The notes under the pieces: generated by a model
Database searches by the model: none
What the model was told of the DNA's origin: nothing
What the model saw: the letters and a program-made list of their open reading frames with translations, nothing else
Made by a program: the position numbers and the translations under genes
From: a virus
DNA length: 25,947 nt
IMG/VR virus record: IMGVR_UViG_3300032163_000092
Location: 1 to 25,947 of that record
Strand: one strand, 5' to 3'
Shown: one piece after another, positions 7,541 through 24,150 of the stretch
Position numbering within the stretch: position 1 is the stretch's first letter
Layout of the letters: every line of letters begins with the position of its first letter

Positions 7541-9009
7541 TCAGTAAATCCCCCCGCGTCTCCCCCGTCATCGACGAAGTTTTCGAACTCGTCTTCGCCG
7601 AGAACCGGATAGCGCGTCTGTAAGAGGTAAAGGATCGCTTGAGTGGCCGTGTCGACTTGATCGTTAACCTCATTGTCTGATCCCCGAAATTTCGCGCACT
7701 CTTCCACAAAGTCCGTGACCCACGGCGCGATCTCGGGGTCCGGTATGTAGACGTTGCCGGCCGCGAGCGGAGGCGTTACCGCTACCGCTCTCGCGACCTT
7801 CGTCCCGTGAGGCAAAATCGGTACGAGACCCGGGATGGTCTTCGTGAGCATCGATATGACGGCCGGTCCGTTCGCCTTGTCTTCCACTAGGTGACCAACC
7901 GCGAACGGATATTGACGCGCCAGATTTTTGACTCCTTCGAGAGCTTCGAGGAAGTCCATCCGTCCACGAATCATGATCGGCAATAGGTAAAAATCCCCAC
8001 CGCGCCGCGCCCAACACTGGCCCACAACAAACGAGCCCGCCTTCGTCTCTTTGAAAGTCATGTCCCACGACGTGACGACGATATCGAAGCCCGACGGTAA
8101 CGCCTTGTAGAAACGCCAGTATGTCCGCTTTAAAACGGTGGTCGTCTCGTCCATGCGTTCGTTCTGCATTTCGCGAGCGAAGATAAGCGGTCCCATGAGG
8201 ACTTTGTCCTTCTTCAATTTGTCGAACGTGTTGTGCTCTGTCGGCCATAAAATCGTTCCCTTGTCCCAATCCTTGACGGCGGCGAAGCTCCGCGATTTCA
8301 CTCCCGCTTTCTTTTTCAATTCTTCGAGGAGGTCATCTGTATTGATCGCGGTCCCTTGAAAATGGATCGACGTCCTCCGTGACTTCGAACGCGCTTGATA
8401 CAGAGAGCCCCAAAACCATGCGTTCTTTTTCTTCGTCATCGTCGACGAGAAGATGTCGTCCTCGTCGTATAAATCGTCCACGATAATGTAATCGGGTCTG
8501 ACGTTCCGATAGTTGATCCCTCGGATGCTCTTGCCGGCCCCGATCGCGGAGAAGATGACTCCGTTACTCAGGACGAAGCGTTGATCCGTCCACCGGTCGC
8601 CGATCATGTCGCCGTACATCGCGATGAGGAGCTCGTTTGATTCGAGCTCGCATTTGATCGCTCGGTTTACCTCAAGCGCCTTTTCGTCGGTCGCTTGCAC
8701 GTTCAGGTAGTGCCGGAACGTCTCGGGCTCTTCGAGAGCTTGAAAGAGCGGGATCAAAAAGCACTTGATCGTCGTCTTCGAGTGATATCGAGGAGCTTCG
8801 GTGTTCGTGAACTCTTCCGATCGGATGCTCACGAAATAACCGTGAAGCTCCGGACAGAAAGGGAGTCCGAACTTTTCGGAGAAGAGCGCCTCGCCCCACC
8901 CGAGAATGTCTTTCTCCTTCGCACATAGACGCGCTTCCTTCAAGCGCGACTGGCGTTCTATTTCAAAGAGCTCGTCGTCTGACCTAGACTTTTTGAGCGC
9001 CGTTGGCAT
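7537..9009 (-). CDS. terL: terminase large subunit
   Basis: A 490-residue DNA-packaging motor. The ATPase half has a divergent Walker A (PRYHSKTT, residues 73-80) where the usual GKT is replaced by HSKT, a Walker B (YIIVDDLYDEDD, about 174-185) and a coupling motif near FQGTAIN (about 217-223). The nuclease half has the three acidic sites of the RNase H-like fold: Asp316 in SWDMTF, Glu376 in VEDKANG and Asp450/Asp453 near NDQVDTATQA. Length and motif order are normal for the family. It overlaps the small subunit gene by 26 bases and the portal by 4. Confidence 0.93.
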   Translation of the reverse strand: MPTALKKSRSDDELFEIERQSRLKEARLCAKEKDILGWGEALFSEKFGLPFCPELHGYFVSIRSEEFTNTEAPRYHSKTTIKCFLIPLFQALEEPETFRHYLNVQATDEKALEVNRAIKCELESNELLIAMYGDMIGDRWTDQRFVLSNGVIFSAIGAGKSIRGINYRNVRPDYIIVDDLYDEDDIFSSTMTKKKNAWFWGSLYQARSKSRRTSIHFQGTAINTDDLLEELKKKAGVKSRSFAAVKDWDKGTILWPTEHNTFDKLKKDKVLMGPLIFAREMQNERMDETTTVLKRTYWRFYKALPSGFDIVVTSWDMTFKETKAGSFVVGQCWARRGGDFYLLPIMIRGRMDFLEALEGVKNLARQYPFAVGHLVEDKANGPAVISMLTKTIPGLVPILPHGTKVARAVAVTPPLAAGNVYIPDPEIAPWVTDFVEECAKFRGSDNEVNDQVDTATQAILYLLQTRYPVLGEDEFENFVDDGGDAGGFTE

Positions 9010-9541
9010 GGCCGGTCCGCATCCGAGCTAAACCTCTAAGCTCATCGCGTGTCAGCCCCGAGAAGTCAATCTGCGATGTCACCGTGACAAGCGGCCGTCC
9101 GTCTTTGCCGGTGACTTCGAGCTTGAGCATCCCTAAAATCTTCGCGGCGAGCTCGGCGGCTCGCAAGCGGTCCGTGAATTTGATCTTCTTCACTTCGCCG
9201 GCGCTGTCATCGAGGTCGATACCGGCAAGAGCGACGATGACGTCATCGGGCATCTGATTGACGTCCTTCATTGTTCCGTCGGTGTTAAAGGCTTTTCGAG
9301 GATCGAAGGTGAGCATGGCGAGGACTTTGGCTCTGACAAGTTCGGTGGTGAGCTCGGACTTCGCTTCTATACGCTTGAGCGCGGCGTCTACTGCGCTCCG
9401 AACCATAACTTTTGATAACAGGCGTGAGCCTTGCGGTTGTGCTGTTTTGGTCGAATAACCGGCTCGTTTCGCGGCGGCGGTCGCGTTTTGGTCTTTGAGG
9501 TACTCCGATACGAAGCGGCGCTCTTTAGGTGATAGGTCCAT
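8984..9541 (-). CDS. terS: terminase small subunit
   Basis: A 185-residue protein with an N-terminal helix-turn-helix (LSPKERRFVSEYLKD, NATAAAKRAGYS, residues about 3-45), the typical opening of Terminase_2-type small subunits, followed by a helical oligomerisation core (ELTTELVRAKVLAML) and a segment with TDRLRAAELAAKILGML. It would recognise the packaging site and load the large subunit, whose gene it overlaps by 26 bases. Confidence 0.9.
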   Translation of the reverse strand: MDLSPKERRFVSEYLKDQNATAAAKRAGYSTKTAQPQGSRLLSKVMVRSAVDAALKRIEAKSELTTELVRAKVLAMLTFDPRKAFNTDGTMKDVNQMPDDVIVALAGIDLDDSAGEVKKIKFTDRLRAAELAAKILGMLKLEVTGKDGRPLVTVTSQIDFSGLTRDELRGLARMRTGHANGAQKV

Positions 9542-9986
9542 TCTTCCCTGTCTGTCCTTGGTTCCCGCCGCTCACCGAGTTAGCCGACTCGGGGTGAACG
9601 TCGAACGACGGGAACCGTACCTTTCGCGAAGCGGTGCGAGCCGTGGAGCCCGAACCGTCTTTAAATTTTCGTTGCGTGAGCGTGAGGTTCGTCGCCGCGA
9701 CGACGCGGGGGTAGAGGTCAGAGGGAATGATCGGTTTCACTACGGAGAGGAAAAATTCTAAACACTCTGCGAGCTGAGAGGTGTGCGAATCAAATTTGTT
9801 TTTCTTCGCGAGGTTGAATTGTCGACGGAAATCAGGGTCATCACGTCGCCAATCATAGATCGCGTCGCGTGACACGCGGACGATGCGAGCGGCCGGCGCG
9901 ACTTTGCCGAAGCGGAGAAACGCTTTTAGGAATGGTTGTTTTTTGTGCTCAAGGATCGCTGTCGCGGTTGAACTCATTACGCCCAT
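9525..9986 (-). CDS. helix-turn-helix protein, terminase-linked
   Basis: A 153-residue protein with an HTH around residues 28-55 (VAPAARIVRVSRDAIYDWRR) that resembles the DNA-binding head of small terminase subunits. The C-terminal third is Ser/Gly/Arg-rich and probably disordered. It overlaps the terS gene by 17 bases. Start could be the ATG at 9986 or that at 9977; neither has a clear ribosome site. It might be a second packaging-site binding protein or a late regulator. A GGATATCC half-site lies right before the start. Confidence 0.7.
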   Translation of the reverse strand: MGVMSSTATAILEHKKQPFLKAFLRFGKVAPAARIVRVSRDAIYDWRRDDPDFRRQFNLAKKNKFDSHTSQLAECLEFFLSVVKPIIPSDLYPRVVAATNLTLTQRKFKDGSGSTARTASRKVRFPSFDVHPESANSVSGGNQGQTGKNGPIT

Positions 9987-10027: not shown

Positions 10028-10273
10028 TTACACTTCGCGGAGGGAGTTCGCCATCTTCGGTGGGACCGCTTCTCGGTGAGGGTTTCTCAGATGGTAGGTC
10101 TTCACAAACACGTCATGAACGTCGCGGTATCGGTGGATGATGACTTGAACGTTGATCCACGTTTCTCCGGTCAGTTGGGCTATCTCTTTCGGCGACTTAC
10201 CGGCGCGGAGTCCGCGCAAGATCGCCGCTATAATTGCTTTCGTAATGATCCGAGCGTTTCTGACTTCCGGCAA
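10028..10273 (-). CDS. small HTH DNA-binding protein
   Basis: The TTG at 10273 has GGGAGG eight bases upstream and gives 81 residues; a longer frame to 10501 runs antisense into the recombinase-like gene and is unlikely. The core AGKSPKEIAQLTGETWINVQVIIHR is a clear HTH of the sigma/homeodomain-like kind. It is the first gene of the leftward packaging and head operon after the divergent promoter region, so it may control late genes or packaging. The function is inference. Confidence 0.65.
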   Translation of the reverse strand: MPEVRNARIITKAIIAAILRGLRAGKSPKEIAQLTGETWINVQVIIHRYRDVHDVFVKTYHLRNPHREAVPPKMANSLREV

Positions 10274-10294
10274 AAGGCCCCCCTCCCCGAGTAA

Positions 10295-10327
10295 GTCCAC
10301 AAAACTATACCCGTTTTTTTTGTGGAC
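10295..10327. repeat. inverted-repeat site A (candidate recombinase crossover site)
   Basis: A 33-bp element with perfect 10-bp arms, GTCCACAAAA and TTTTGTGGAC, around a 13-bp centre. Its left part (GTCCACAAAAC then TATACC) recurs at 11505 after the recombinase gene, with a single extra C. The size is near that of a small serine recombinase crossover site (about 28-34 bp). It also overlaps the leader of the leftward HTH gene and the -35 area of the rightward promoter. Confidence 0.6.
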
Positions 10328-10344
10328 AGCAAACGCGGATTTAC

Positions 10345-10376
10345 TATGATATCCGCTCTGATATCTATCAGGCAAG
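10345..10376. promoter_or_regulatory. divergent promoter region with GATATC operator O1
   Basis: Two GATATC boxes at 10348-10353 and 10360-10365 are six bases apart. Leftward, TTGCCT (10375-10370) and TATCAT (10351-10346) are 18 bases apart and enclose the second box. Rightward, TATGAT (10345-10350) lies 19 bases from TTGTGG (10320-10325). The operator therefore overlaps both promoters, so one bound regulator could switch the recombinase operon and the HTH/terminase operon. Promoter calls are by eye. Confidence 0.6.
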
Positions 10377-10397: not shown

Positions 10398-10886
10398 ATG
10401 AATGACCTATCTCGAAACTCTGTCGATCCAAAGGACGACCGCGAGGAATTGGCGTCAGCTCCGACGTCTTCTCGTTCGTCGATACCCATCGACCAAACCA
10501 ATTCCGTTCCGCAAGGTCAATCAATTAGAGCTGTCCTTTACTACCGAGAAGAAGACCGTCGGCGACTTCAAGAACTTAAACGCCAGTGCGCGGTCCGTAA
10601 CTTTATCTTTCTCACCGAAACGACAGTATGGGACGACGCGATCGACCTCGCGAAGAAGCGCCTTGTCGACGTCGTTGTTGTTCCCTCTTTTTCTTCCTTC
10701 CCTGTAATCGAAGGGCAATTTCCGCCGCTCGATCTGTATCTTACAGAGAAGGAGCTCAGAGATAGAGGCGCGAGCTTCTTCGTCATTTCCGAAGGAGTCG
10801 GGACGGCCACGGCGACCGGACGGTTCATGTTCACTTCAATGGCGGCTTTGCATGGCTATAGGAGACTCGGTGGATCAAGCGATTAA
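10398..10886 (+). CDS. degenerate serine recombinase-like protein (no catalytic serine)
   Basis: ATG at 10398 has GGAGG eight bases upstream. After a disordered 40-residue head, residues 43-157 line up with the catalytic domain of the recombinase encoded just downstream. AVLYYREED matches AIYARVST but has Glu where the nucleophilic serine should be. DVVVVPSFSSFPVI matches DALLVWALDRFARS but lacks both active-site arginines. GTATATGRFMFTSMAAL matches DTSTSQGRLMFHVIAGM. The C-terminal DNA-binding domain is absent. It is probably a non-catalytic partner or inhibitor of the active enzyme. The gene overlaps the next by 17 bases. Confidence 0.75.
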   Translation: MNDLSRNSVDPKDDREELASAPTSSRSSIPIDQTNSVPQGQSIRAVLYYREEDRRRLQELKRQCAVRNFIFLTETTVWDDAIDLAKKRLVDVVVVPSFSSFPVIEGQFPPLDLYLTEKELRDRGASFFVISEGVGTATATGRFMFTSMAALHGYRRLGGSSD

Positions 10887-11535
10887 GAAGCGCGTCGCGA
10901 TCTATGCGCGAGTCTCAACGAACGACCAAACAGCCGAGAACCAAATCCTCGACCTCGAAGGTTTCTGTAAACAGCGCGGTTGGACGATCAAGGAAACATT
11001 CATCGATGAGGGTATCAGCGGCGCTAAGGATGACCGGCCGCGCTTGAACGATATGATGGATCTCATCCGTCGCCACAAGTTCGACGCGCTCCTCGTCTGG
11101 GCGCTCGATCGCTTCGCGAGAAGTATGAAGCATCTCGTCCTCACTCTCGATGAGCTCCGCGAGCTGAAAGTCGATTTCATTTCCTACAAGCAGAACATCG
11201 ATACGAGCACATCGCAGGGACGCTTGATGTTCCACGTCATCGCCGGCATGGCTGAGTTTGAGCGCGAGATGATCCGCGAGCGCGTCTTTAGCGGACTCCG
11301 CCGCGTGAAGGCTTCCGGAAAGACGCTCGGACGTCCAACCCTACCTCAAGAGGTAAAGACAAGGATTCGCGAACTCCACGCGGCCGGTCAGTCCTACAGC
11401 GCGATCGCCGCACAAATCAAGTGGGTCCGCGCTTCCGGAAAGTACGGTCCGCGCAAAGAAGTGAGCATCTCGAAGTCGGTCATCGGGAAGATTTTAAACG
11501 AATCGTCCACAAAACCTATACCAAATGTCGCTTGA
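10870..11535 (+). CDS. serine recombinase (resolvase/invertase type)
   Basis: The GTG at 10870 has AGGAG five bases upstream; an ATG at 10852 lacks one. The 221-residue product has the small serine recombinase layout: AIYARVST with nucleophile Ser16, LDRFARS with Arg81 and Arg84, DTSTSQGRLMFHVIAGMAEF leading into the long E helix, and a C-terminal HTH (GRPTLPQEVKTRIRELHAAGQSYSAIAAQ in parts, about 154-221). It is far shorter than large phage serine integrases, so inversion, resolution or a site-specific excision role is more likely than classical integration, though integration is not excluded. Confidence 0.92.
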   Translation: MDQAIKKRVAIYARVSTNDQTAENQILDLEGFCKQRGWTIKETFIDEGISGAKDDRPRLNDMMDLIRRHKFDALLVWALDRFARSMKHLVLTLDELRELKVDFISYKQNIDTSTSQGRLMFHVIAGMAEFEREMIRERVFSGLRRVKASGKTLGRPTLPQEVKTRIRELHAAGQSYSAIAAQIKWVRASGKYGPRKEVSISKSVIGKILNESSTKPIPNVA

Positions 11536-11606
11536 GGCGTCGACGGAGCAAGTGTCGCTTGGAAAGGCTCCACCGAACAAGTGTTTTGTGGACACCCGTC
11601 GGAGGC
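11505..11606. repeat. repeat region after recombinase: site B plus three imperfect tandem units
   Basis: GTCCACAAAAC at 11505-11515 repeats site A, and its inverse TTTTGTGGAC lies at 11584-11593. Between and over them are three imperfect direct units of 27-29 bp at 11523-11549, 11550-11578 and 11579-11606, beginning AAATGTCGCTTG, AAGTGTCGCTTG and AAGTGTTTTGTG. A fourth looser copy (GTGTGGCTTGAGGC) occurs near 11643. Resolvase res sites are built from several recombinase subsites of similar size, so this may be a binding and crossover region. It overlaps the 3' end of the recombinase gene. Confidence 0.6.
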
Positions 11607-23424: not shown

Positions 23425-24150
23425 TTAATTTTTTGCGCCGGTCAAACTTTTACTCGAAGAGTGGAGCGGGGAGGTCGGAGTTGCGCCGCCTTCTCCGAGC
23501 TGGAAGCCCGGCGTGTCACTAACAACACTTTCCCCGCAAATCTTTTTTGGGTACGGCTTCGCGACGATCCTCTTCCGGAGCTCGTCATCGAACGGATAAA
23601 AATATCGGTGCTTCGGTTTTTGCTTCACGATCGTCAAATCTTTTTTCTTCGGGCATGAGCTCATCCGGCCGTAATGTTCTTTGACTCCGGACGTCGAGAC
23701 GGACCGGTCGTGGTACACGCGGCCGCTCTTACCGATATAGATCGGGACGCTTGCGCTCTCTCCGGTGTAAATCCAGTTGCCGGCCTGATAGATCGATCCG
23801 ACGTGTCCCTGATTCGCGTCCGCGTAAGAAATGACGAGCTTGAGCCCAGGGCAAAACTTCCGGAGCATCCGGATCGCGATCGCGACGATCTGAGTCACCG
23901 GCGCTTTATGCGCTTTCAGCGCGACGCGAGACAGCTCGCAAATCTCCGTCGTCTTAAGTTTGTACGTCTTCGCGAGGTCGGATCCACTCACGCCGCGGCT
24001 GAATAGGACCGCTCCGATAAACGTCCCGTCTTCCCAGACGCCGACCTTCACGCATTTCGAATCGGGCATATGTTTCGAGTAGTGGTAATGAAGGACCGCG
24101 AACTTCGCGGCCGCGTAAGAGCACCAGTCGAGTTTAAGATTCGAACTCAT
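23425..24150 (-). CDS. Mom-like DNA modification protein
   Basis: The 241-residue product carries HYHYSKHMP, VGVWEDGTFIGAVLFSRG, ELSRVALK, and CPGLKLVISYADANQGHVGS then IYQAGNWIYTG, a near-linear match to the Mu Mom family (GNAT-like fold). Mom converts adenine in phage DNA to a carbamoylmethyl-type (acetamido) adenine and so protects it from restriction. The conserved core spans about residues 15-165; the tail is variable. It overlaps the ParB-like gene by 17 bases, suggesting they act together. Confidence 0.83.
   Translation of the reverse strand: MSSNLKLDWCSYAAAKFAVLHYHYSKHMPDSKCVKVGVWEDGTFIGAVLFSRGVSGSDLAKTYKLKTTEICELSRVALKAHKAPVTQIVAIAIRMLRKFCPGLKLVISYADANQGHVGSIYQAGNWIYTGESASVPIYIGKSGRVYHDRSVSTSGVKEHYGRMSSCPKKKDLTIVKQKPKHRYFYPFDDELRKRIVAKPYPKKICGESVVSDTPGFQLGEGGATPTSPLHSSSKSLTGAKN

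Follow-up and report, generated by a model that had tools for sequence, protein, structure and literature searches.

Serine recombinases are controlled by the topology of their recombination sites or by unrelated directionality factors. The latter are known for the large serine integrases that act on attP and attB, while small resolvases are directed by site topology. In the Tn3 system, contacts between catalytic domains hold the res complex together. The chromosomal cassette (SCC) elements carry two adjacent full-length large serine recombinases, CcrA and CcrB, in one operon. Catalytic domains of Tn3 resolvase that are inactivated by the S10A substitution are tolerated at the accessory sites, though not at the crossover site (PMC9943657), and dead subunits can therefore work in this complex. 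Here we analyse a phage locus in which a predicted dead catalytic domain is encoded as a separate protein directly upstream of an apparently active small serine recombinase. The original prediction described the two as a coupled pair, and suggested that the dead member could act as an inhibitor, directionality factor or regulatory subunit in a phage switch. As explained below, the pair itself is supported, while the switch is not.

The window that we analysed is the whole 25,947-base virus record, which derives from a tailed phage. Its minus strand encodes the portal, the large terminase and two terminase-small-like proteins, its plus strand encodes small early genes, and the recombinase pair lies at the divergence point of these two arms (Table 1). 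Both predicted open reading frames exist on the plus strand, that of the upstream protein (P0001) at 10398-10886 and that of the recombinase (P0002) at 10852-11535. The latter is open from an ATG at 10852, and its most likely start is the GTG at 10870, judging from an AGGAG five bases upstream. With this start the predicted overlap of 17 nt holds (it would be 35 nt if the ATG were used). The SD sequence of P0002 lies within P0001. The two adjacent terminase-small-like genes (8984-9986) and the short HTH-like gene (10028-10330) form a block that is common to all relatives discussed below. At 23425-24150, the window also encodes a Mom-like DNA modification protein (PHROG_1384, E = 4.5e-52), possibly an anti-restriction gene.

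Table 1. Features in and around the P0001/P0002 locus (coordinates refer to the window)
Feature	Position	Strand	Description
Second terminase-small-like protein	9525-9986	-	Belongs to the syntenic block by which relatives were recognized
Short HTH-like protein	10028-10330	-	Start uncertain; divergent from P0001/P0002; in the syntenic block
Probable operator	10295-10327		33-bp palindrome, GTCCACAAAA-13 nt-TTTTGTGGAC; half-sites as in the downstream site
Sigma-70-like promoter	10323-10350	+	TGGACA-16-TATGAT; 10/12 consensus
P0001	10398-10886	+	ATG start; 162 aa; residues 1-42, N-terminal tail (low model confidence); residues 43-158, predicted catalytically dead serine-recombinase catalytic domain
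P0002	10870-11535	+	GTG start; 221 aa; small serine recombinase
Res-like region	11505-11593		Overlaps the 3' end of the recombinase gene; conserved in L107, L110, L112, L157 and L158
Probable accessory binding site	11505-11531		Imperfect inverted repeat GTCCACAAAACCTATACCAAATGTCGC
Probable crossover site	11568-11593		26-bp dyad, CTCCACCGAACA-AG-TGTTTTGTGGAC; central dinucleotide 11580-11581

P0002 has the sequence of an intact and, as predicted, presumably active enzyme. The motifs YARVST and LDRFARS, a full helix E and a C-terminal HTH are all present, so that the catalytic Ser and Arg residues, helix E and HTH fall within the roughly 180-230 aa that characterize small serine recombinases. 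The SGxKxxRP loop and all other parts that are missing from P0001 are likewise kept, and the orthologues of P0002 in syntenic phages are 36-49% identical to it.

The resemblance of P0001 to the catalytic domain of resolvases, which had been noticed by comparing motifs, is borne out by profile and pairwise searches. P0001 matches the Pfam Resolvase family (PF00239) with an E-value of 1.1e-4, at 22.8 bits marginally below the curated cut-off of 23.3, the DNA invertase profile PHROG_125 with an E-value of 6e-5, and, in BLASTP, its partner P0002 (27% along 78 residues, with a pairwise E-value of 2e-7). When scored with an HMM of 86 recombinases, P0001 reaches 26.7 bits, as compared to 10.8 bits for the best of 20,000 shuffled versions of P0001 and -1.9 bits for the reversed protein. 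By these sequence statistics, which are independent of any structure model, the homology exceeds chance. The AlphaFold2 model of P0001 alone is poor (pLDDT 39). Given a 34-row alignment of P0001 with 33 further sequences of recombinase domains, of which two are dead domains themselves, the prediction improves to a pLDDT of 83 overall and of about 95 for the greater part of the core, and its strands and helices follow the resolvase order. The solved structures nearest to this model are serine recombinases (Foldseek E = 1.5e-5), and in VIA-align the Z-scores are 13.0-13.3 for gamma-delta resolvase and a phage serine integrase, but at most 7 for other folds. Because the resolvase alignment biases the model, it supports rather than proves that P0001 has a resolvase fold.

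Two alignments agree that the nucleophilic Ser is absent from its column in P0001, as is Arg from both LDRxxRS columns. Also missing is the SGxKxxRP segment that lies between beta2 and alphaB, and the protein stops midway through helix E, with neither the second half of this helix nor a DNA-binding domain. The expected losses were thus correct for the nucleophile, the LDRxxRS arginine pair and the DNA-binding domain, but R50 preserves the Y-x-R arginine, which corresponds to Arg8 of gamma-delta resolvase. The dimerisation core, which the original prediction took to be retained, is retained only in part: a segment of helix E is present, but the loss of its other half could abolish dimerisation. 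Having neither catalytic residues nor a DNA-binding domain, P0001 could play a role only through protein contact or through its translation.

These losses bring up the possibility that P0001 is debris, either a tandem copy or a captured recombinase fragment, that is translated without any effect on P0002. The missing half of helix E would be in keeping with this reading, as would a very long branch in the recombinase tree (4.39 changes per column) and a GC3 of 0.54, compared to 0.64-0.73 in the neighbouring genes, which fits a recent arrival or foreign gene, or relaxed constraint. However, in spite of this extreme divergence, P0001 has a frame of 162 codons with a good ribosome-binding site and with no stop or frameshift, its GC1 exceeds its GC2 as in coding sequence (which is not the case for the alternative frame), and its core still fits the resolvase fold. 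We regard debris as unlikely, though it is a serious competitor. As to origin, the tree neither favours nor excludes a grouping of P0001 with P0002 (AU p 0.41), and a recent tandem duplication therefore cannot be claimed. Searches of IMG/VR, phage records, plasmids and GTDB genomes recovered no close relatives of P0001, only weak matches to true recombinases, and selection on P0001 can therefore not be measured.

The DNA on both sides of the gene pair carries repeats that could be binding sites for the recombinase. Upstream, a palindrome overlaps the -35 region of the operon promoter, so autoregulation is likely, and the palindrome is a probable operator. Its half-site GTCCACAAAA has four exact copies in the window, all flanking the P0001/P0002 pair, and with up to one mismatch there are 6 copies, as against 1.4 expected. 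A TGGAC -35-like element can be recognized by eye at a similar position in L109, L110, L112 and L157. Downstream, a res-like region, which is new here, is shared with several related phages (at 4550-4680 in L107, 4590-4725 in L110 and 4540-4670 in L112, for example). Within it, the 26-bp dyad has the 12+2+12 bp layout expected of a serine-recombinase crossover site. Over six phages, half-site symmetry about its axis amounts to 48/72 positions, but to no more than 25 once the axis is shifted by anything up to 12 bp, and an invariant CA and TG flank the variable central dinucleotide. It was this six-phage comparison that replaced the dyad at 11505-11531 as candidate crossover site. That inverted repeat, GTCCACAAAACCTATACCAAATGTCGC, is matched nowhere else in the window, even when 3 mismatches are allowed.

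The inner repeats of the region co-vary, being TGTCGC twice in the window, where one of the two lies outside the recombinase gene, and TGTGGC twice in other phages. The outer repeats change together in L158, to GCCCCACAAA and TTTATGGGGC. Such paired changes point to selection that acts on the DNA rather than on the overlapping C-terminus of the recombinase. The site segment has one match in the 25.9-kb window and one in each of two related records of 45-47 kb, though the records may be incomplete. Two records of 45-47 kb have a single resolvase-family gene. A search of four related records for a tyrosine integrase found none. From the single conserved res-like site and the lack of a tyrosine integrase in those records we infer that P0002 is a resolvase, probably for genome multimers. 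On sequence grounds, it looks like an autoregulated resolvase and not like a switch. A separate search of viral contigs with a 17-20-bp site pattern returned 13 contigs, none of which has a recombinase of the P0002 kind.

This assignment bears on the suggestion that P0001 serves as a directionality factor or regulates lysis versus lysogeny. The overlap of the two genes in an operon would agree with such a role, and the dead domains that we found in Bacillales (see below) are paired with large, integrase-type serine recombinases, which do need such factors. However, P0002 is a small recombinase of 221 aa with a single res-like site rather than a large serine integrase, its relatives manage without P0001, and neither a repressor nor an integrase module was recognized in the window. 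We thus consider this role very improbable.

The related phages provide a further view of the pair. A search with P0002 led to L026 (48% identity over full length), and ten contigs carry the syntenic block, i.e. the small terminase gene, the second terminase-small-like gene and the short HTH gene, followed by a recombinase gene on the opposite strand. These contigs represent about seven lineages, as three pairs are near-identical. The recombinase is present in all ten, and P0001 in none. Nor did any of the fetched recombinase loci have a P0001-like neighbour beside a phage recombinase of this block. In place of P0001, the interval between promoter and recombinase contains a 94-aa ORF in L109, a 91-aa ORF and noncoding DNA in L107, a 133-aa ORF that by eye resembles an HNH endonuclease in L166, no evident gene in L110, L112 and L157, and almost nothing in L158. 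L109 and L112 are alike to the left and right of this interval but not inside it, and P0001 therefore looks like the occupant of a variable cargo slot. We also observed a near-identical noncoding element of about 130 nt between promoter and recombinase in L107 (3180-3330), L112 (3710-3860) and L157 (4320-4460, minus strand), phages whose recombinases differ substantially. The element is absent from the window, has no match in Rfam and has an ordinary folding energy (z -0.87).

A conserved phage switch is difficult to reconcile with these data, given that ten of ten relatives keep the recombinase without P0001 and that a single res-like site fits resolution. The original prediction had itself taken relatives without the adjacent pairing as evidence against it, and such relatives are what the survey of neighbouring genes found. 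Since the relatives keep enzyme and site but not P0001, any control exerted by P0001 would be local, and is unproven. The absence of P0001 from all ten, and its place in a variable slot, add to the case for debris. They also bear on another explanation, in which P0001 acts mainly in cis: ribosomes that translate it would be delivered to the recombinase start within its 3' end, so that translational coupling sets the dose of the recombinase and the protein is incidental. The 17-nt overlap and the position of the recombinase SD inside P0001 agree with this explanation, as do the other leaders, short ORFs or noncoding DNA, that fill the slot in relatives. Yet a resolvase fold would be unnecessary for this purpose, the recombinase has its own SD, and several relatives have no overlapping ORF. 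We therefore view coupling as improbable, and as less so than a directionality factor.

Although the dead partner is absent from the phage relatives, this architecture is found, independently, in Bacillales and a Moraniibacteriota genome. Scanning all fetched recombinase loci revealed two further pairs of a dead domain and a recombinase. In Heyndrickxia ginsengihumi, a 179-aa domain in which YTRNT and LFSLTP replace the catalytic motifs overlaps an active recombinase of 566 aa. In a Moraniibacteriota genome (L184, 995-1453; same genome as L178), a 152-aa resolvase domain is followed after 14 nt by a large serine recombinase. Its nucleophile Ser is replaced by Ala (RVA for RVS) and SERLAR is kept. 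We found Heyndrickxia-type dead domains in 5 of 299 genomes drawn from the order of Heyndrickxia, here called Bacillales, each directly upstream of a large serine recombinase. In these pairs (L192-L196; also L171, 3457-3993), a dead domain of about 183 aa with the motifs YTRNT and xFTLSP overlaps a serine recombinase of 565-575 aa, and mostly adjoins a phage primase-like gene. The Ser and the LDRxxRS arginines are lost, and the Y-x-R position is Arg, or Lys in L193. The pair is conserved over identities of 44-89%, and comparison of its four closer members gives dN/dS values of 0.24-0.34 for the dead domain and 0.04-0.08 for the partner recombinase. The dead-domain protein of Bacillales is thus maintained under purifying selection, and this recurrence of the architecture under selection argues against debris in the case of P0001 as well. 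The Bacillales domain has no close sequence similarity to P0001, so that stand-alone dead domains next to active recombinases have probably originated more than once. The family has no match in viral contigs, and its hits in phage records are all annotated as integrases or resolvases. In the literature that we searched, which was mainly open-access, we found no description of a dead serine-recombinase partner from phages or Bacillales.

Taken as a whole, the reading that we favour over debris and over translational coupling, at slightly short of even confidence, is that the dead P0001 is co-transcribed with an autorepressing resolvase, P0002, that acts at the res-like site, and that P0001 tunes P0002 by contact alone. 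P0001 and P0002 would be made from one transcript, and P0002 would bind the res-like region, cross over at the 26-bp dyad and repress its own operon through the upstream palindrome. The remaining half of helix E or the outer face of P0001 might then cap or poison dimers and tetramers of P0002, such that a free dead domain would block or reshape the contacts between catalytic domains in the recombination complex. We infer that the two genes are co-transcribed, that P0001 binds P0002 and in which direction it acts, and also that the biological role of P0002 is resolution.

More generally, free-standing dead serine-recombinase domains could be undescribed, repeatedly evolved subunits that control recombinases and are translated together with the enzyme, with P0001 and the Bacillales proteins as separate examples. 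This wider proposal is speculative, and we would not bet on it. If it is true, a subunit derived from the enzyme's own dead catalytic domain would constitute a further principle of control, and one suited to the engineering of tunable recombinases. Even if P0001 is inert, the res-like site and the Bacillales pairs are directly testable.

Compared to known systems, the locus resembles Tn3 and gamma-delta in having a small serine recombinase, a putative multi-site region adjoining its gene, and a probable crossover site of two half-sites with a 2-bp core. It differs from them in that its main site is at the 3' end of the gene with sub-sites spaced about 30 bp apart, in the separate palindrome over the promoter, in the lack of a transposon, and in the separate dead domain without DNA-binding domain. 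With the Hin/Gin/Cin invertases it shares the 12+2+12 bp layout of its probable crossover site, and the profile of this type, PHROG_125, is the best phage profile match of P0002. Unlike in those systems, no second, inverted crossover site was found in the records, which may be incomplete, no invertible tail-fibre segment was recognized in the window, and no enhancer was identified. As in CcrA/CcrB, two serine recombinase genes are adjacent in one operon, but P0001 is a dead domain of 162 aa. A parallel to P0001 is the Bacillales pair, in which a stand-alone dead catalytic domain that has lost the Ser and the LDRxxRS arginines likewise immediately precedes and overlaps an active serine recombinase, although the partner there is large and that of P0001 is small.
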